A stretch of DNA of 64,000 nt from positions 62,001-126,000 of the forward strand of contig NZ_RBIJ01000001.1 of NCBI RefSeq assembly GCF_003633725.1, in the 5' to 3' direction. The notes beneath the pieces are model-generated. The model did no database searches. It had not been told where the DNA came from and worked only from the letters and a program-made list of their open reading frames with translations. Below are positions 44,024 to 57,155 of the stretch, piece after piece. The position numbers and the translations under genes are program-made. How positions within the stretch are numbered: the first letter of the stretch is position 1; each line of letters starts with the position of its first letter. Origin of the DNA: Brockia lithotrophica. Its GTDB lineage: Bacteria; Bacillota; Bacilli; Thermicanales; DSM-22653.

Positions 44024-45319
44024 TCACCAGCGCATCTTGGGTTCCGGGGATTCTTCTTGGGTGGTCACGGTCTTTCCGAAGTTGATGATCTTTACGTCCA
44101 CGTGGACTTCTACCTCGGCGCGGGGGAATTTTCCCGGGAAATCGTACCGACGGTAGTCTTCCCACGTTGGAAAAAGCCTAAGCGCAAATCGGCTCCAACC
44201 GAAGATGTCCGTTTCGAACTCTTTCTGCGCCCGGTGGACGACCCGGCGGAAGGCCGATTCGAGTTCCTTGCGGATGCTCTCGTGGAGGAGTTTTCGCTTC
44301 TCGGCGTCGTTCACGTAGTCGACCCGCGAGGGAACGGAGAGGACCTCTACGCGGAAGGGGACGTCGACGACGATCCGAGGAATCTCGCGGCTTACGTCGA
44401 TGCGGATCCGCGGTCCCTCCCAGTTTTGGATCCGCGTGGAGACGTAGTACGTCGGATCTACGGGATCGCGAAATCCGATGAGGTAAGTCGCTACGTGAAG
44501 TTGGTTTCCTAAGAGGAGGGCGAAGCGCGTCTCATACCCCGTGAGCGCCCCGACCATCTTCCCCCGCGCGAGAGCGGCGCTCCCGATCATCTCCACGGGA
44601 TCCCCTCCTTCGATGCGGAGTTCCCCGGGGAAGGCGCGGTCGTCTCGTCCTTCCGAACCTTCCTCGCGTCGAGCCGTGGCGTACGTGACGAGGTAGCCAG
44701 CACGGATGCTGTAGGCGCGGAGGAATTCGTTGAGCGTGGAAATGGGGACGGTTCCCGTATCCTTCCAGCGGTTGAGCTTGAAGCGATAAAAGATGTACGG
44801 AAGCGTCTCGAATCGGGGGCGGTTTTCCCGCAAAAAGTCCTCCGCGCGCTCGTGCGTGACGATGATCGGCGTTGCCCGGCGCATTTCCGGGTCGCGGAGT
44901 GCCGCGGCGAGGGTGACGAAGAGGTCTTCTTGGCGCACGAGCTCCTCGCCGATGACGATCGTCTGAACGTGGGAGATGTTGATCCGACGGGTGACCACGG
45001 AGTTTGCGATGTCCCGCGCCCAGATGGGCGTCGTATCGCGCACCGTGACGTACGTGACGTTTGGCTCCTTTTGCGCCGTCTGGCTTATAGGAATGGAAGC
45101 CTTTTTGGTGTTCATGAGCTCGAAGGTGACATCCAGCCGCCCCGGCTGTTCCGCACGGTCGAGGCCGATGGCCGAGGCAAAGACGATGTCCTCGAGTTCG
45201 ACCTTGTCCCAACAGCCGCCCAGGGTCAACAATCCGCCGATCCCCGCGAGGAGGAACGCGGAACGCCCTAAAGCCCGAAGCGCACATTTCAGACGCCCGC
45301 GCGCCGTCGACCGAGGCAT
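44024..45319 (-). CDS. gerKC: Germinant receptor C subunit (GerKC-type lipoprotein)
   Basis: About 431 residues. A lipoprotein signal (LLTLGGCWDKVELEDI) is followed by the GerAC three-domain body with IGLDRAEQPGRLDVTFELMN and SHVQTIVIGEELVRQED. The C subunit is a membrane-anchored component required for germinant sensing. ATG 45319 gives a family-like signal peptide. An in-frame ATG at 45415 has a better ribosome site (GGAGGAGG) and would add 32 low-complexity residues, so the start is uncertain. Third gene of ger operon 1. Confidence 0.9.
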   Translation of the reverse strand: MPRSTARGRLKCALRALGRSAFLLAGIGGLLTLGGCWDKVELEDIVFASAIGLDRAEQPGRLDVTFELMNTKKASIPISQTAQKEPNVTYVTVRDTTPIWARDIANSVVTRRINISHVQTIVIGEELVRQEDLFVTLAAALRDPEMRRATPIIVTHERAEDFLRENRPRFETLPYIFYRFKLNRWKDTGTVPISTLNEFLRAYSIRAGYLVTYATARREEGSEGRDDRAFPGELRIEGGDPVEMIGSAALARGKMVGALTGYETRFALLLGNQLHVATYLIGFRDPVDPTYYVSTRIQNWEGPRIRIDVSREIPRIVVDVPFRVEVLSVPSRVDYVNDAEKRKLLHESIRKELESAFRRVVHRAQKEFETDIFGWSRFALRLFPTWEDYRRYDFPGKFPRAEVEVHVDVKIINFGKTVTTQEESPEPKMRW

Positions 45320-45486
45320 TTCCGCCCTGCCTTTCGGGAGGGCTTCGCCCTTACGGCCACGAGGGGAGGGTACGGGAGACTTCGGCCCTTCTCGCCCTTC
45401 CTTTTTCATCGCCATCGGCCTCCTCCATCCGAGTTTGGCTGCACTACGCCAGAAACGTCGCCGTCGGCCGAGGTTCGAGGCGAAGT

Positions 45487-46602
45487 TCAGTGCGGCCTTC
45501 CTCCCCGGAACGGCTGCTTTCCCGCGGGAAGCGGCCAGAGCACGACGGCAAGGCCCAAGAGGAGCATGACGAAGGTGGCGGCGACGACGACGGCGTACTT
45601 CCAGCGAAAGATGTCGTTGATCCCCACGGGGATGAGGCTCGTGAGAAAGAGGTAGGCGGCAACGAGCGGGAGAAGCGGCCTTCCCGCGGGTACGTCCAGG
45701 GCGAGGCGGAGGAGCTGGGCGAGGAGGTAAAGGACGATGGCGAGCCGCGCCACGGAGGCCATGACCCAGATGTAGAGGAAGATCGCCTCGATGTGGGAGA
45801 TGTAGAGCCCAAAGTGGGCGAAGCGCGTGAGTTGCTGGTAGTGGAAGAGGATGTCGTTTACGCTGGGGAAACCGAAGACCCAGTCGTAGAGGAGAAGAAA
45901 CACGCTCATCACCAGGGCGGCCATTCCCGTCCCCGTGAGGATTGCCCGGCGAAAGGTGCGAACTCCCCCCTTTGTGGCACCGGCGAGGAAGGCGAGGAAA
46001 AACGGCTCGCAGAAAAAGCCGAGGGTGAGGAGGGATTCCCGGAGAATCCGCGGAATTCCCGGTCCGAAGAGAGGAAAGGTATAGGACGGGTCCACGAGGT
46101 CGATGACGCCGAGGATGAGGAGGACGAAAAAAAACATGGCGTACACGAAGAACATGTTGCCCATTCGCCCGATCGCCTCGTAGCCGCGAGAGGCGACGTA
46201 CATCCCGCCCAAGAGGAGCACGAGGCCGACGGCGTGTTCGGGCGTACGCAGGTAGAACATCACCGTGAGCATGACGACGTACGGACGAAAGCAGAGCGCC
46301 CCCAGGGCGAGGAGGAGGAGGAAGAGGCCCCACGCGGTGAAGCGCGTCGCCGTAGGTACCCACATGAGCTTGAGGAGACGAAAGACGTCGTCGGCGCCGT
46401 GGCGCTCCATCTTCCGCGTGAGCGGGACAAAGAGGAGGACAAAGGCGAGCCACTGGATGAGGGGGACCATCCATGCGGCGTTGCCGCCGATTTGGAAATA
46501 GAGTGTTGTATTTTCGTCCGTGCCGCGGAGGGCGATGAGGAAAAACGTCATCGTCGTGAGCTCGCGAAAGCCGATGCGTCGGTTGGTCGACGGCGTTTCC
46601 AC
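45487..46602 (-). CDS. gerKB: Germinant receptor B subunit (GerKB-type permease)
   Basis: 371 residues with ten predicted membrane helices, an APC-superfamily spore germination permease. RIGFRELTTMTFFLIALRG opens the protein; later helices include MFFFVLLILGVIDLVDP and LAIVLYLLAQLLRLALD. The B subunit is the likely ligand-binding and ion-channel component. Start GTG with GAGGAGGGGG upstream. Second gene of ger operon 1. Confidence 0.92.
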   Translation of the reverse strand: METPSTNRRIGFRELTTMTFFLIALRGTDENTTLYFQIGGNAAWMVPLIQWLAFVLLFVPLTRKMERHGADDVFRLLKLMWVPTATRFTAWGLFLLLLALGALCFRPYVVMLTVMFYLRTPEHAVGLVLLLGGMYVASRGYEAIGRMGNMFFVYAMFFFVLLILGVIDLVDPSYTFPLFGPGIPRILRESLLTLGFFCEPFFLAFLAGATKGGVRTFRRAILTGTGMAALVMSVFLLLYDWVFGFPSVNDILFHYQQLTRFAHFGLYISHIEAIFLYIWVMASVARLAIVLYLLAQLLRLALDVPAGRPLLPLVAAYLFLTSLIPVGINDIFRWKYAVVVAATFVMLLLGLAVVLWPLPAGKQPFRGGRPH

Positions 46603-46662
46603 GCGCCCCCTCCTCTCTTCGGGGGGTCTTTCGCCGCGCTCCTGCGGAAACCGGTTTCTCCC

Positions 46663-48270
46663 CTACGGTTTCGGGTTCCGGGGGTTCTCCCGCGCGGGGA
46701 TCCTGTGGAAGGGGAGGCGAAGGCGGAGCTCGGCTTGGGGCATGGCCGTTTCCGGGTTGTGGGTTTCCTCCCAGAAGGTGCGGCGGAAGAAGGTGTCTTT
46801 GGAGGAGGGGAGGTAGGGGGCGACGGGGGCCATGTGCCCTACGCCGAACGGTTCGTGGGAGACCATGTAGGCGAGGAGGACGGCGAAGAGCGTGGCGATG
46901 CCGAGGAAGCCGAAGAGGGCGGCGGCAAAGATGAAGAAAAAGCGCATGATCCGGAGGAAAAACCCGAGGCTCTGGTCAGGGATGGCGAAGGAGGCGAGGG
47001 CGGTGATCGCCACGACGATCACGAGGATGGGGCTTATAAGCCCGGCCTGAACGGCCGCCTGCCCGAGGATGAGGGCGCCGACGATGCCGATCGTAGGTCC
47101 GATCTGCGTGGGGATCCGCGTGGAGGCCTCCCGGATGAGCTCGAAGCTGAACTCCATGAGGAGGACTTCGACGACGGTCGGGTAGGGGACGTATTCGCGC
47201 GATCCGGCGATGGAGACGAGGAGGTCGAGGGGGATCGTTTCCGGGTGGTAGTTCACGGCGGCGACGTAGAGGGCGGGCGCGAGGAGGTTCAAAAAGAAGG
47301 CGGAGATCCTGAGCCCGCGGAGGAAGTTTCCGTACGCCCACCTCTGGTAGTGTTCGTCCGGCGTGTGCAGGAGGTTCCACTGCGGGGCGGGAGCGATGAG
47401 GACGAAGGGGAAGTTTTCCTGGATGAGGACGACGTGGCCTTCCAGGAGGTGGAAGGCCGCACGGTCCGGCCGTTCCGTTGCGAGGAAGGAGGGAAGGAGG
47501 CTCTTGGGGTAGGGGTCGAGGAGCTCCTCGATGAAGACGACGCGCTGAAAGTCTGCCTGCGCCAGCTCGTCGAGCCGCCGGCGAAAACGGTCGACGAATT
47601 CCTCGCTCGCCGTTCCCTTGAGGTAGAGAAGGGCCACCTCCGTCCGCGTCTCTGTCCCAATGCGAAAGGACTCGTGGACGAGGTTGGGCGAGCGCAGGTA
47701 GCGGCGGAGGATAGCGAGGTTTTGGTGCAGGTCTTCCACAAAGGCTTCCTGCGGCCCCTTAAGGACGTGTTCGATTTTGGGTTCTTGAACGGAACGCGTG
47801 GGGAAGAAGGAAAAGTCGATGGCGAAGGCGCGGCGGATCCCGTCGATGAAGAGGACGATGTGCCCGTCGAGGATGTGCCGAAGCGCGTCCTCCATTTCGT
47901 CCACGTAGTCCAGGTGGAGCGAGTCGAGGATCGTCGTGATCTCCGTGTAGGCCTTTTTCCCGGTGATGGCGGTAACCCGTTCGTTTAACGGCCGGATCAC
48001 GGCCTCGTCGATCGTGCTTTCTTCGATCGTCCCTTCCAGGTAGACGATGGCCGCCTTGCGCCGGCCGTATGTGATGTGGCGCACCTTGAGGTCGACGTTT
48101 TGCGGCGAATGAAAGTGCTCACGAACCTTGGCGACGTTCGTCTTGAGCTTAGAAGAGATGGGGCACTTGGGACACTTCGGCCCCGGCACGCCCGTGCGCT
48201 TTGCCGCCGCCTCTTCCAAGGTGCGCTGCTTTTCCCGGTGGCGCCGAAAGACGGACCAGGGGCGGAACAC
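46663..48270 (-). CDS. gerKA: Germinant receptor A subunit (GerKA type)
   Basis: About 535 residues. An N-terminal soluble domain (RKAAIVYLEGTIEESTIDEAV, NERVTAITGKKAYTEI) is followed by GerA-family hallmarks PQEAFVEDLHQNLAILRRYL, PYPKSLLPSFLATERPD, and membrane segments around FFLNLLAPALYVAAVNYHPE and GPTIGIVGALILGQAAVQAG. The GTG at 48270 follows GGAGGG and was preferred to longer starts. First gene of ger operon 1, divergent from the Asp23-family gene. Confidence 0.92.
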   Translation of the reverse strand: MFRPWSVFRRHREKQRTLEEAAAKRTGVPGPKCPKCPISSKLKTNVAKVREHFHSPQNVDLKVRHITYGRRKAAIVYLEGTIEESTIDEAVIRPLNERVTAITGKKAYTEITTILDSLHLDYVDEMEDALRHILDGHIVLFIDGIRRAFAIDFSFFPTRSVQEPKIEHVLKGPQEAFVEDLHQNLAILRRYLRSPNLVHESFRIGTETRTEVALLYLKGTASEEFVDRFRRRLDELAQADFQRVVFIEELLDPYPKSLLPSFLATERPDRAAFHLLEGHVVLIQENFPFVLIAPAPQWNLLHTPDEHYQRWAYGNFLRGLRISAFFLNLLAPALYVAAVNYHPETIPLDLLVSIAGSREYVPYPTVVEVLLMEFSFELIREASTRIPTQIGPTIGIVGALILGQAAVQAGLISPILVIVVAITALASFAIPDQSLGFFLRIMRFFFIFAAALFGFLGIATLFAVLLAYMVSHEPFGVGHMAPVAPYLPSSKDTFFRRTFWEETHNPETAMPQAELRLRLPFHRIPARENPRNPKP

Positions 48271-48435
48271 GGCGGTCCCTCCCTCCGGGTGCCCTCTCCG
48301 GCGAGGGCGTACCCTCCGCATTGGCAACTTCCGCCTCGCGTCTAGTTTTTGCCGGGGCATGCAGGAATATGAAAACCGCTGCGGTATAATGAAGCGAGAG
48401 CGGCAACGGCCGCCGCAGGCAAAGGAGGCCGGCAC

Positions 48436-49023
48436 ATGCCGATGGAGACCTTCGGGAGAGAACCTCGAGACGAAACGGGGCGTTCGTTGGGGGAACCCCC
48501 GTCGCATTCCGAAGCATCGTTTGCGCAGTCGAATAACAAGTATTCCAAAGAGTCGGAAACAAAAGAGCGCGGCGTGGCTATGGAGGTGATCTCCCTCCTC
48601 GTTCGCCTCGCCGTAGAGGATACACCCGGAGCTTACCTCGCAGAGGAGCCGTATGTGGGCGGCTGGGTGTACCGCCTTTGGGGGAGGCCCGCCGGGCCGG
48701 CGGTGCAGCTGCGCCGGGAAGACGGTCGGCTTTCCGTTTTCGTGCGCCTTGCCGTCGACTATGGTGCGGACATCCGGAGCGTGGCGCGCGAAGTCCAGAG
48801 GCGCGTCCGCGAAGATGTGGAGCGTCTTACGGGCTACGTCCCGGACGCCGTGGACGTCTTCGTCGAAGACGTCCGCGAGAGAAAGGCTCGGCCTCCCGAG
48901 CCCACCGCACAGGGCGAAGGTCGTTCAGCCGGAAACCCGACGGAGTCGGGAGATCGCCAAGGCGATGCCGACCTCCCCGAGGCTCAATACGAGGGACGTT
49001 CCTCCGTAGCTGATAAAGGGTAA
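48436..49023 (+). CDS. Asp23/Gls24-family envelope stress protein
   Basis: 195 residues. The central ~100 residues (EVISLLVRLAVEDTPGAYLA, LSVFVRLAVDYGADIRSVAR, EVQRRVREDVERLTGYVPDA) fit the Asp23 domain. The family forms small membrane-tethered or cytoplasmic proteins linked to envelope homeostasis. The first 45 and last 50 residues are low-complexity. The ATG at 48436 follows AAAGGAGG; an ATG at 48571 would remove the N-terminal extension. The 3' end overlaps convergent ftsW by 99 bases. A TATAAT at 48385 may be its -10. Confidence 0.75.
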   Translation: MPMETFGREPRDETGRSLGEPPSHSEASFAQSNNKYSKESETKERGVAMEVISLLVRLAVEDTPGAYLAEEPYVGGWVYRLWGRPAGPAVQLRREDGRLSVFVRLAVDYGADIRSVAREVQRRVREDVERLTGYVPDAVDVFVEDVRERKARPPEPTAQGEGRSAGNPTESGDRQGDADLPEAQYEGRSSVADKG

Positions 49024-52531: not shown

Positions 52532-53302
52532 ATGAAAAGGGAGAGGTCCCGTTCCTACGAAATCTGGACGCCCGAGGATGACCGCATTTTGGCGGAGAGC
52601 GTGCTCTCTTCGCTTCGTCGGGGAGGCACCCAAAAGGCCGGGATCGAGGAGGCCGCAGAGCGCCTCGGCCGTTCCTACGCCGCCGCGAGCTACCGCTGGA
52701 ACCGCTTCGTGCGCAAGGATTACGCAAAGGAGCTTGCCGCCCTCCGCAGAAGTGCCCGCTCGAAAGGGGCTTTTCCCCAGGAGATTCCGCCTTCCTCCGC
52801 TTTCTCCCCTGCGGCACCGGATCCTTCCGCCCGCGCCCGCGAGGTTCTCCGGAAGATTTCCGCACTTCTCGAGGAATTGGAAGAGCTCTTCGGGGATGGG
52901 TCCGTTCCGGGTTCCTTCCCCTCGCATAGAGGTGCTTCTGTCGGTCCGTCCCTTCCCTCGGCTTCGGTTTCCCCCTCGGCTCCTCCGTCTGGTCGGGCGT
53001 CTCTTTCGGCTTCGGCCCTTTCCGAAGGGGAGGCGCTCGGGGAGAAAGGGAAGGGGGAAGGGGGAAGCTCCTCTCGCGAAAAGCCGGAGGACAAGGGAGA
53101 ACAGCGACCTCCGCACCGGAGGGCAACGTTGGGTGCAAGCACAATCCGGAGGGTCTCGCCTCTTTCCGCAAAGAAAGAGGAAGGGGGAGGCAGGGAGATT
53201 CGCCTTTCTCTCGCGTTTGCAAGGGAACCGGGCTCGTTGGATGAAAAATCGGACGCCCTCACCCCCATCTTGGAGGCTCTGCGCGACCTCGAAGACTCGT
53301 AA
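52532..53302 (+). CDS. rsfA: RsfA-family prespore transcription regulator
   Basis: About 256 residues. The N-terminal ~70 residues are a Myb/SANT-like domain (YEIWTPEDDRILAESVLSSL, RRGGTQKAGIEEAAERLGRS, YAAASYRWNRFVRKDY) matching RsfA, a sigma-F-dependent regulator acting in the forespore. The rest is a predicted coiled coil (LRKISALLEELEELFG) and a serine/glutamate-rich low-complexity tail, much longer than in B. subtilis. The ATG was chosen by domain start; the ribosome site is GGGAGTGG. Confidence 0.82.
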   Translation: MKRERSRSYEIWTPEDDRILAESVLSSLRRGGTQKAGIEEAAERLGRSYAAASYRWNRFVRKDYAKELAALRRSARSKGAFPQEIPPSSAFSPAAPDPSARAREVLRKISALLEELEELFGDGSVPGSFPSHRGASVGPSLPSASVSPSAPPSGRASLSASALSEGEALGEKGKGEGGSSSREKPEDKGEQRPPHRRATLGASTIRRVSPLSAKKEEGGGREIRLSLAFAREPGSLDEKSDALTPILEALRDLEDS

Positions 53303-53311
53303 GGCTTTCGT

Positions 53312-55588
53312 CTAGCGGTTCGTGTGTACCTCCAGGCTTCCCCGGTCGACGATGCGCACGAAGACCTCGACGCGGACGTCGCGAAGGCGCCGAGGCGCCT
53401 TCGCGACTTTTGACGAGGGCGCGGTCTGCGAAAGGGGCAGTCCGTAGGGGTTGAGCCCTTCCTCTCCGACCTTTTGTAAGACGGTTTGGGCGGTTTCCGC
53501 CAGGGTCTTGGCGGCACGCGCTTCAAGTTCGGACTTTGGGAGCCCGTCGGAATTTTCCTCGACGGCGGCGTCGACCCGAAGTCGGAGGTGAAGGGTCGTC
53601 CCGTCCTCGAGCCAGAGCTCCGTGCGCCAACGCCCCGGGGGACTCACGAGGAGGGCACCGTTTACCCGCACGCTGAGGGGGATTCGTTCGCGCAAAAGCG
53701 CGTTCAAAAGGACGGCCTCCTCGCCGCGGAGTTCCAGCCGCGGCCGGGCCTTGTCGCACACGTAGAGGGAATCCACGCGGTAACCTTGTTTCTCGACGCT
53801 CACGACGGGGAGGACGGGATCGAAATCCGGCTCGAGGAGCCTGCGCCCCACGTCGAAGAGTTCTGCCGGGTAGAGGTCGGGGTTGTCTTCGCCCGTTCGT
53901 TCCAATAGGGAGAGGAGGTTGCTCCCGGGGATTCGCTCGTCGGGCGGTTTGATCTCGAGGACGTCTCGGGCGGAGGGCCGTCCCACCGCGACGAAGGCGG
54001 TCACCTTGATTTCTTCGCGGCGGAGGAACCCGTCGAGGAGTTCACCCAGCGTACGGTGTGAGAGGGCGTCCTCGCCGATCACCACGACGTTGAGGTGGGA
54101 AAAGTCCAGGTAGCTGGATGAGCGCGTGCGAAGGGTTTCCACGGCTTCGGCGAACCCCGAGGCTTCCGTTTCCAGGAGGAGGAAGCGGTTTTCTCCCTTT
54201 TTGATCTCGGGGCTGGGGATGACCACCTTAAACGTAAAGCGTAGGCCTTCTGTTTCGTGTTTCTTCGGTACAGAGGTACTTTCGGTGACGCCGGGGCCGT
54301 CTACGCCCACGGCGATGACGAACGCGTGTTGCTCGATGTCGCGGTAGTTGCACCCGGCGACAAACGCCGCGCTTCCGCCGAGAAGGAGGGCGACGAGTGC
54401 AGCTTTCCCTCCGCGGAAGCCCCTTCTCGCGCCTTGGGGAGACCGTTTTTGCGGGGGGAGGCGCACGAAGAGTCCAAAGACGAGGAGGGCGACGAGTTCG
54501 GCCGCAGGTAAAACGTCGAAGAACATCGCCACCGCCCGGTACGTCCCTTCCGTACCCAGGAGGTTCCAGAAAATGGGGAGGAGAACTAGCCCGGTGACGG
54601 CAAGGAACAGCCACGGGAAGAGCCGTTGCCGCCGCATACCCATAAAGGCGGGAGCGTCGAGCTCGGGGGTCGTCCCCCGAGCTCCTTTTCGTTTGGCAGA
54701 TTCGCCGAACAGGGCGGCCTCGAAGAGGCGGACGGAGGCGGCCCAAAAAACGGTAGCGGCGAGGGAGGAGGAAGTGAGGGTGACGAGCACGAGCGTGAGG
54801 AAGTCCTGCTCCATCGGCGAAAGGTACAGCCGCACGGCACTCGCCGCGCTCAACCACGGGTACGGTGCTCCGGAGAGGAGTTCCGGGCCGAGGAGGGAGA
54901 GGGGGAGGAGGTAGAGGAAGACGTAGGCGAGGGCGAGGAAGAGGAAAACGAGGGCGTAGGGGAAGAGGCGCTTCGGGGGTTCGAGGACGTGGAGGAACCC
55001 CGCTAGGGCCAGCGTCCCGGAAAAGGGAGCAAAGGCGGCGGCGATTTGCCCGTACGTGGGCAGCCCTGGACGCAGGAGGTGGCGCCATGCAAGGTCCCAT
55101 CGGGTATGCGGCTGAGTGAGCGTAGGTGGCAGGGACACGAGGAGGACGAGGATCCCGAGGAGGGCGAGCACCTCCACTGCCAGAAGGAGCTTGGAAAAGG
55201 GGAGTCGTGCGCCGTAAAGGGCGAGGGCGGCGAAGAGGAACACGGGGAGCGAAAGGTAGGCCGGAGCCCCAAGGAAGCGTATGGCGACATCTGCGGAAAA
55301 GAGGATCGCAAAACTCCCCCACGCGAGGTACGTAAGGCCGAAGGCTGCCGCCAGCGGTCGCGCCGCGGGGGACGGAAACACGGCGGTGAGCTGATCGTGA
55401 AGCGGGGTGTAGGGAGCCTTGCGCCAAAGGGTGCCGTAGGCCAAAGCGAGGACGATTCCCAGAAGGCTGCCCGCCGCGAGGGCAAGACCGTCCCCCGCCG
55501 GGGAGGCGAGAAGGAGGTGGGGGACGAACCCGAAGCCGGCCATGAAGTACGTAGCGAGAAAGACGTACAGGGCAAAGCGTGGCTGCAC
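53312..55588 (-). CDS. Fused germinant receptor B-C subunit (GerAB permease + GerAC lipoprotein domain)
   Basis: 758 residues in one uninterrupted frame. Residues 1-~375 form a ten-helix GerAB-type permease (MQPRFALYVFLATYFMAGFG onward). Residues ~394-758 are a GerAC body introduced by a signal-like helix and lipobox (GSAAFVAGCNYRDIEQHAFV, Cys ~413), with HLNVVVIGEDALSHRTLGEL typical of C subunits. The only plausible internal start is a GTG at codon 375 (54466), which has no ribosome site. The frame begins directly after the GerKA-type stop (TAAGTG). A fused B-C receptor subunit is, to my knowledge, not described. Confidence 0.85.
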   Translation of the reverse strand: MQPRFALYVFLATYFMAGFGFVPHLLLASPAGDGLALAAGSLLGIVLALAYGTLWRKAPYTPLHDQLTAVFPSPAARPLAAAFGLTYLAWGSFAILFSADVAIRFLGAPAYLSLPVFLFAALALYGARLPFSKLLLAVEVLALLGILVLLVSLPPTLTQPHTRWDLAWRHLLRPGLPTYGQIAAAFAPFSGTLALAGFLHVLEPPKRLFPYALVFLFLALAYVFLYLLPLSLLGPELLSGAPYPWLSAASAVRLYLSPMEQDFLTLVLVTLTSSSLAATVFWAASVRLFEAALFGESAKRKGARGTTPELDAPAFMGMRRQRLFPWLFLAVTGLVLLPIFWNLLGTEGTYRAVAMFFDVLPAAELVALLVFGLFVRLPPQKRSPQGARRGFRGGKAALVALLLGGSAAFVAGCNYRDIEQHAFVIAVGVDGPGVTESTSVPKKHETEGLRFTFKVVIPSPEIKKGENRFLLLETEASGFAEAVETLRTRSSSYLDFSHLNVVVIGEDALSHRTLGELLDGFLRREEIKVTAFVAVGRPSARDVLEIKPPDERIPGSNLLSLLERTGEDNPDLYPAELFDVGRRLLEPDFDPVLPVVSVEKQGYRVDSLYVCDKARPRLELRGEEAVLLNALLRERIPLSVRVNGALLVSPPGRWRTELWLEDGTTLHLRLRVDAAVEENSDGLPKSELEARAAKTLAETAQTVLQKVGEEGLNPYGLPLSQTAPSSKVAKAPRRLRDVRVEVFVRIVDRGSLEVHTNR
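53378..53411 (+). terminator. rsfA terminator inside the fused ger gene
   Basis: GTCGCGAAGGCGCC pairs perfectly with GGCGCCTTCGCGAC (14 bp, 2 unpaired bases), followed by TTTTG. It lies within the 3' coding end of the opposite-strand fused gene. Confidence 0.85.
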
Positions 55589-56962
55589 TTAGCGTCCCAC
55601 TCCTTTGCCGGACGTCCCCGCGGAGAAGGGAAGGTAGAAGTACGGTTCGCCAAAGCTCTCCCTTTCGGCGAGTGCGAAGAGGTAAACCGCAAACCCCACG
55701 AGGATTCCCGCGAGGCCGAAGAGGGAGGCGAGGCCGATGAGCGGATAGCGCGCGATGCGCACGGCGTACAACATGGGGTTTACGGGGACCACGAAGCTCG
55801 AAATGGCTACGACGGCGATCACGAGGATCATGACGTCGGAGACGATCCCTGCGGTGGTCGTCGCCTGCCCGAGGATGATTCCGCCTACGGTGGTCGCGGC
55901 GGCGCTTATGCTCTTGGGCAGGCGCATCGAGGCTTCGAGAAGGAGCTCCACAGCGAGCATCATGAAGAGCACTTCGAAAAACGCGGAAAAGGGTACGGCC
56001 GCCCGGCTTCCCGCCACGGACAACGTGAGCGGGAGGCGGATCGCTCCGGGGTTGTACACGGTGAGGGCCACGTAGAGTGCGGGCGTAAGCAGCGTGACGA
56101 GGACGGCGGTAAAGCGCATGGTGAGGAAGAAGAGGCGCGCGATGCCGGGATGGTACACGTCGTCCATGGAGGCGAAGAAGTCGAAGAAGTAAGCCGGGGC
56201 GATGAGGGCGAACTCCGAGCCGTCGAGGAGGAGGGCCACCTTTCCGTGGGTGATCTCCTGCAGGATTCGGTCGGGTCGGTCCGTGACCATGTACGAGGGG
56301 AAGAGCGTGAACTTCCCGGCAAATACGCGCTCGAGTTGTCCGGCGGCGAAGAGGGCGGGCAGGTCGGGCGTCTGGATCGCCTTGCGGAGGGCTTCGAGAA
56401 CGTGGGACTTCACGAGGTCGCGGTCGTAGACGAGGGCGACGTTGGTTTGGCTGCGCGTACCGATTTCCCCGAGCTCGATGGCGAGGTTGACCTGCTTGTA
56501 GCGAAAGCGGAGGAGGTTGAGGTTGACGAGGAGGGTTTCGCTCAGCGAGTTGAGGGGGCCTTGGAGGACGGGCTCGACTTCCGTCCGCTGAACCCCCGTA
56601 TCCTGGAGGAGGCGAAGGTCGAGAAGGTAGGGCTCTCCTTCGAATTCCACGAAGACGGCCCCGTTTAGGAGCATCTTGGCCGCCTGTCCTTCGTCGGCGT
56701 AGGGGATACCAAAGGGATGGCTCTTCAGGTAGTCGCGGAAGCGGGACGCATCGGTTTCGAAGAAGACGCGCACGAGGTAGCGCTGGATCTTGTCTTCGTC
56801 GGCCACGGTCTTGACGTAGAGAAGCGTCGCGCGCTTCGGGCCGTCTTCCAGGGTTCGGGATACGAAGTCCGCCAGTCCTTCGAAAGTGCGGCGAAGGGCA
56901 TCTTGGGGACGCAAAGGGGAAGCGCTTTTGTCTTGGGTCCCGCTCCTATCCTTTTTCTTCAT
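55589..56962 (-). CDS. Germinant receptor A subunit, second operon
   Basis: About 457 residues. GerA-family features are GPLNSLSETLLVNLNLLRFR, GEIGTRSQTNVALVYDRDLV, YMVTDRPDRILQEITHGKVA and membrane segments FTAVLVTLLTPALYVALTVY and TVGGIILGQATTTAGIVSDV. It is shorter than the operon 1 paralogue because the N-terminal soluble domain is abbreviated. The ATG follows GAGGAGGGGACAA. It pairs with the fused B-C gene to form a two-gene receptor operon. Confidence 0.92.
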   Translation of the reverse strand: MKKKDRSGTQDKSASPLRPQDALRRTFEGLADFVSRTLEDGPKRATLLYVKTVADEDKIQRYLVRVFFETDASRFRDYLKSHPFGIPYADEGQAAKMLLNGAVFVEFEGEPYLLDLRLLQDTGVQRTEVEPVLQGPLNSLSETLLVNLNLLRFRYKQVNLAIELGEIGTRSQTNVALVYDRDLVKSHVLEALRKAIQTPDLPALFAAGQLERVFAGKFTLFPSYMVTDRPDRILQEITHGKVALLLDGSEFALIAPAYFFDFFASMDDVYHPGIARLFFLTMRFTAVLVTLLTPALYVALTVYNPGAIRLPLTLSVAGSRAAVPFSAFFEVLFMMLAVELLLEASMRLPKSISAAATTVGGIILGQATTTAGIVSDVMILVIAVVAISSFVVPVNPMLYAVRIARYPLIGLASLFGLAGILVGFAVYLFALAERESFGEPYFYLPFSAGTSGKGVGR

Positions 56963-57155
56963 TTGTCCCCTCCTCTCGCCCCGAGTACCGGAATTCGCCG
57001 GGTGCGGAAGTCTCTGCCACGGGTTTCTTTTCCTAGGTTGGGAGGCGGCGGCAGGATTCATGCGCCGCATGCAAAATTTCCGCGCCGAGGGAGGAGTTTG
57101 CCCGCGGATGACGAATTGTGCCCAGGAAAGGGTGTTTGCGGAAAGGGGGTCGGCC

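Follow-up and report, generated by a model that had tools for sequence, protein, structure and literature searches.

A single gene for fused GerAB- and GerAC-type subunits in a germinant receptor operon of Brockia lithotrophica

The window, by which we mean the whole stretch of 64,000 nucleotides of DNA from the thermophilic spore former Brockia lithotrophica that we analysed, carries on its minus strand a GerA-type operon in which the A subunit is encoded upstream and A, B and C are encoded together, with B and C in a single gene. Receptors of this type are the sensors through which dormant spores are woken, B being a nutrient-sensing membrane subunit and C an outer lipoprotein. The features of the locus are the following.

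55589–56962, minus strand: gerAA, the receptor's A subunit, from ATG at 56962 to TAA at 55591–55589 (PF03323, E 8e-106; Shine-Dalgarno pairing of -12.2 kcal/mol before the ATG)
55600–55606, minus strand: the Shine-Dalgarno sequence AAAGGAG of the fused gene, within the 3' end of gerAA (pairing -8.4 kcal/mol)
53312–55588, minus strand: the fused gerB-gerC gene, 758 codons, its GTG start abutting the gerAA stop (same-frame homology to relatives' separate B and C)
54464–55588, minus strand: GerAB-type permease domain, codons 1–375, ten predicted transmembrane helices and APC fold (hydropathy, AF2, Foldseek, and Pfam for the orthologues)
54413–54463, minus strand: short basic junction RLPPQKRSPQGARRGFR region, codons 376–392, where the B tail has merged with the n-region of the GerAC signal peptide (alignment with relatives' separate B tails and C n-regions)
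54353–54412, minus strand: predicted eleventh helix, the h-region of the GerAC signal peptide, codons 393–412 (hydropathy; AF2 helix 387–403, fragment helix 56–80)
54350–54361, minus strand: lipobox V-A-G-C with Cys413 (sequence and hydropathy; the Cys is invariant in 26 aligned C domains)
53315–54352, minus strand: GerAC body, residues 413–758, GerBC fold (PF25198, E 1.5e-29; PDB 3n54 by sequence and by fold)

A first-pass annotation had proposed that one 758-codon frame joins a GerAB permease to a GerAC body, and a single frame of 758 amino acids does run from the GTG at 55588 to a stop at 53314–53312 without interruption. As the G+C content of the window is 64% and spurious long frames are frequent there, the open frame alone would be weak proof: the C frame of a second ger operon stays open to 816 aa over gerB, yet that gerB lies in another frame. 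It is for this reason that homology through both halves matters, and here the GerAB and GerAC of relatives align to one and the same frame, over residues 1–377 and 386–729 respectively, which bears the proposal out. The coding-type pattern of G+C by codon position is likewise unbroken across the junction. The calculated mass of the entire chain, 82.8 kDa, agrees with the product of about 83 kDa that had been anticipated; cut ahead of Cys413, it would yield pieces of 44.3 and 38.5 kDa. At 55586–55591, a single TAA splits gerAA from the fusion in the same frame, and A, B and C are thus one frame with one stop, an arrangement with a chance expectation of 1/3. A scan upstream of gerAA for a sigma-G-like promoter yielded only a two-mismatch site.

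The identity of the permease half rests on family and fold. By hydropathy, the first 379 residues contain ten helices, as the first-pass annotation had counted them, and an eleventh segment at 393–415 ends in VAG-Cys413. Against GerAB proteins of relatives in the same family, the B part matches with E-values of 7.6e-25 to 1.1e-27; its 13.2 bits against PF03845 fall under the Pfam cut-off of 23.4, which the B orthologues in G002, G003 and G005 pass, and the orthologue in G004 has no Pfam match. Its AF2 model (pLDDT 82, pTM 0.83) has a ten-helix APC-type fold, and Foldseek places AdiC, BasC and GkApcT among the top matches (E 1.4e-7 to 8.6e-6). The two parts were modelled separately, since rows were misplaced when the fusion was aligned together with B-only and C-only rows.

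The C part matches PF25198 (E 1.5e-29), TIGR02887 (E 3.2e-29 over residues 405–717, with a score under its curated cut-off) and GerBC (PDB 3n54), the last both by sequence (E 2.6e-5) and by predicted fold (E 1.8e-11). PF05504, the C-terminal Pfam domain, was undetected in the fusion's C part and is present in the relatives tested. The GerAC signal peptide and lipobox are also there, internal rather than N-terminal (RRGFRGGKAALVALLLGGSAAFVAGC413), and the motif F-V-A-G-C413-N-Y is intact, just as the retained lipobox near Cys 413 had been described. The junction RLPPQKRSPQGARRGFRGGK is strongly basic, which is consistent with a cytoplasmic loop from which TM11 would lead GerAC outward. The first-pass picture of a C domain set on the end of permease helix 10 was therefore imprecise: C is indeed joined behind the permease, but the former signal peptide intervenes as an eleventh helix, and is needed to put C on the outer side.

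That B and C are normally separate genes, as had been supposed, holds in every orthologous operon that we inspected. Orthologous A–B–C operons are present in Hydrogenibacillus and Ca. Carbobacillus, which are neighbours within the GTDB family, as well as in Paenibacillus, Peribacillus and Sporosarcina, among others; all six relatives inspected have B and C unfused, and each of the 39 named loci encodes them in different frames, two sets that overlap by three genomes. This particular fusion is carried by one genome only. Its architecture, on the other hand, is not unique, as the search for homologous fused proteins that had been suggested makes clear: three or more further lineages also have B–C fusions. 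Our survey ran a B+C profile over 399 genomes of the class and 398 of the phylum, with the best ~150 matches listed, and added Pfam scans of long frames. Among the matches listed are a class mate with 39% G+C (G470, 740 aa), two genomes of one genus whose fusions are 729 aa long and 99% identical (G064 and G110), and a fusion of 610 aa that ends at a contig end (G342). A search of the family of this last genome showed that its congener G445 is also fused, with a frame that crosses the junction before the contig ends, and that the genes are separate in other genera of the family; in G785 and G080 the stop of gerB and the start of gerC overlap as ATGA. This makes at least five fused loci besides that of Brockia among the matches listed, where the architecture looks uncommon. 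Between G342 and G445, dN/dS is 0.24 for the B part and 0.15–0.23 for the C part (dS ~0.65–0.8), which points to long-term purifying selection on their fused gene. Because each has unfused relatives or sits in a distant lineage, we regard the fusions as having probably arisen independently in four groups, Brockia's included, a grouping made by relatives and distance and not by a tree of fusion events. Such recurrence in separate lineages suggests that B and C tolerate, and perhaps favour, synthesis as one chain.

Taken together, we read the locus as a genuine B–C gene fusion of a GerA-type receptor, made as a single chain and working as a subunit with GerAA, with lipidation likely and cleavage possible, and we put the probability of this reading at about three in four. 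The ten-helix permease part, the nutrient-sensing subunit, would lie in the spore inner membrane, and the former signal peptide of GerAC would serve as an eleventh helix that places the GerAC body on the membrane's outer side, where ordinary receptors also have it. Together with GerAA from the adjacent upstream gene, the fusion would assemble the usual A:B:C oligomer, its B and C made exactly 1:1. Lgt would lipidate Cys413, and LspA may then cut, giving from one translation product a permease with one extra helix and an ordinary lipoprotein. The earlier claim that the fusion fixes a 1:1 stoichiometry thus stands for synthesis, which is necessarily 1:1, but not for a lasting covalent link between B and C, as the lipobox and LspA could allow cleavage before Cys413.

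How far does this processing go? GerF assists the diacylglycerylation of the C subunit in ordinary receptors (PMC11841064). The Cys and its preceding Gly (-1) are kept at the old cleavage site in all fusions found, and LspA is encoded in the Brockia genome; these observations together favour lipidation, and Lgt most likely modifies Cys413. For LspA cleavage ahead of this residue, the sequence leaves us close to an even bet. The competing view, which bears on the cleavage step only, is that the chain stays whole and TM11 anchors GerAC to the permease for good, as a fixed B–C unit whose Cys is either lipidated or idle, akin to a transporter to which an ectodomain partner is joined; we rate it somewhat short of even. 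It is consistent with the AF2 model of the C-side fragment, in which an unbroken helix (56–80 in fragment numbering) passes the lipobox into GerAC, with a topology that is correct without any cut, and with the imperfection of some fused lipoboxes (that of G064 has N at -3). Nevertheless, the Cys and Gly -1 have been kept in four of four independent fusions, even though the Brockia C domain evolves fast, and the peptidase is present.

The main rival to our reading of a working fused subunit is that the receptor is on its way out, its B and C under relaxed constraint, the fusion a near-neutral accident and the receptor weak or silent. The fate of the operon in a congener (G001) lends this some weight: both flanks are syntenic at 84–88% identity, and the segment corresponding to ~53361–57014 of the window is missing in a clean deletion of ~3.65 kb that removes the gerAA-gerBC operon and leaves a scar (G001:C2:66376-66921, L102) holding the last GerAC codons. 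Scar and synteny imply that the operon existed in the common ancestor and was later lost in the congener, and its loss as a whole implies that the receptor is dispensable within the genus. Rates of evolution lean the same way. Averaged over outgroups, the distance of A is normal (1.87 vs 1.83–1.97 in the family) and those of B (3.65 vs 2.62–2.90) and C (3.00 vs 2.45–2.65) are high, so that B and C, but not A, have evolved 1.2–1.8 times faster than in relatives, and the second, unfused operon of the same genome, which serves as a control, has no such acceleration of B and C. The C-terminal domain PF05504 is also no longer recognised. This acceleration would, however, fit either relaxed constraint or an altered specificity after fusion. 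Against decay stand 758 codons without a stop or frameshift and with coding-type G+C throughout, the retention of the invariant B positions and of the lipobox Cys, the good start signals, and the purifying selection on a fusion elsewhere (G342/G445). We therefore consider a waning receptor unlikely, if far from negligible.

Could two proteins still be made, with GerAC also initiating inside the frame? The first-pass annotation had named the GTG at codon 375 as the only internal start and found it to lack a ribosome site. The second part stands, for this codon, the last in-frame ATG, GTG or TTG ahead of the lipobox, has a Shine-Dalgarno pairing of just -3.0 kcal/mol, against -8.4 at the true start; the first does not, as a GTG at codon 353 and an ATG at codon 355 are also in frame. 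These lie inside TM10, and their weak pairing (-6.2 and -6.4 kcal/mol) gives some room for a second start, but it falls among the values seen at other internal codons, and initiation at either would append most of TM10 to GerAC. A separate GerAC product from any of the three codons is thus very unlikely. Finally, an assembly or sequencing error that hides a true B/C stop, the frameshift that had been offered as a refutation, might be suspected from the single genome in which this fusion is known and from the homopolymer runs in the junction (six C, five A), but it is scarcely credible. The other two junction frames close only at 54303 and 54230, which lie 16 and 40 codons past Cys413 and hence within mature GerAC, so that no single indel would restore the ordinary gene pair; and were a sense codon called falsely in place of a stop, GerAC would still lack a supported start.

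With the fused subunit as the preferred reading, how does it compare with known systems? The GerA, GerB and GerK receptors of B. subtilis (GerAA-GerAB-GerAC) share with it the canonical order of A, B and C, an APC-fold B, a lipoprotein C of GerBC fold and a GerA-family A, and differ in that B and C are two proteins there and one polypeptide in Brockia. The likeness of B and C to a transporter with an ectodomain partner extends to LAT1-4F2hc, and the fold search with our B part matched LAT1/LAT2-4F2hc chains, among others. Unlike the fusion, LAT1-4F2hc consists of two chains, and its ectodomain is unrelated. Closer in layout is the cytochrome b/c1 polyprotein of Bradyrhizobium (fbcH), in which a membrane subunit and a signal-anchored exoplasmic subunit are synthesised as a single chain that is cleaved at an internal signal sequence; that system involves signal peptidase I and a cytochrome, whereas for the fusion we propose a lipobox and LspA. 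GerAB and GerAC have themselves been likened to heteromeric amino-acid transporters such as LAT1-4F2hc (PMC8617281). Subunit arrangements vary in clostridial Ger loci too, with gene orders ABC, ABCB, CA-B and ACxBBB, but those are rearrangements and duplications, and the words 'fused' and 'fusion' are absent from the paper (PMC5083711). Antonov et al. 2013 report that programmed frameshifting fuses two adjacent 'Spore germination protein' genes, reaching as much as 13% in an E. coli reporter; they found no fused homologues in nr at the time, and the main text leaves the subunits unnamed (PMC3711429). There a single chain arises from two adjacent germination genes by recoding, whereas Brockia has a fixed genomic fusion with a continuous frame and no recoding; should the pair prove to be gerB and gerC, the present fusions would be the missing genomic counterparts.

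Perhaps B–C fusion is even a recurrent and selected mode of receptor building, in which a self-processing polyprotein, cut by LspA at an internal lipobox, enforces a 1:1 supply of B and C, and unfused species may obtain the same product by frameshifting at a low level where B and C overlap; this is a conjecture that we ourselves think quite unlikely. Current models of germinant receptors, as a pentamer or a hexamer built from A–B–C units, derive from predicted structures and co-evolution (PMC11841064, PMC13170314). The natural fusion of B with C in four or more lineages is independent evidence that the two work 1:1 and side by side, and supplies ready-made constructs for structural work. If the internal lipobox is processed, Lgt and LspA would have to accept a signal peptide behind a ten-helix membrane protein. 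We found no description of a GerAB–GerAC fusion in the open-access full-text literature, which is weak evidence, as subscription papers are largely outside that coverage.

Some further observations concern the surroundings of the operon and the survey. Convergent with the fused gene, at 52532–53302 on the plus strand, is a gene whose N-terminal DNA-binding domain is of the RsfA/GerR type (TIGR02894, E 1.1e-14, under the curated cut-off), a sporulation-type regulator adjoining a receptor operon. The second, unfused gerA-type operon occupies 44024–48507 on the minus strand, with A at 46663–48507, B at 45487–46602 and C within 44024–45415, and its proteins are 85–92% identical to those of the congener. 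A third GerA-family locus (C1:328812) sits immediately downstream of a gene resembling those for sigma factors and is presumably akin to spoVAF, for which reason it was left out of the receptor count. Several candidate fusions were set aside: G068, G114 and G238 (70–75% G+C) have GerAC frames of 604–1483 aa without an in-frame permease, with GerAB in another frame where checked, and the long frames of G778, G384, G622 and G520 hold no permease within the GerAC frame. The tightest junction belongs to the loci of G064 and G110 (L117, L118), where only LAGRK stands between TM10 and the signal h-region, followed by SGC. One family (f53) has a comparatively recent B–C fusion in one genus (L134, L140) and unfused genes in sister genera (L135, L139), and would make a good system in which to study the fusion step.
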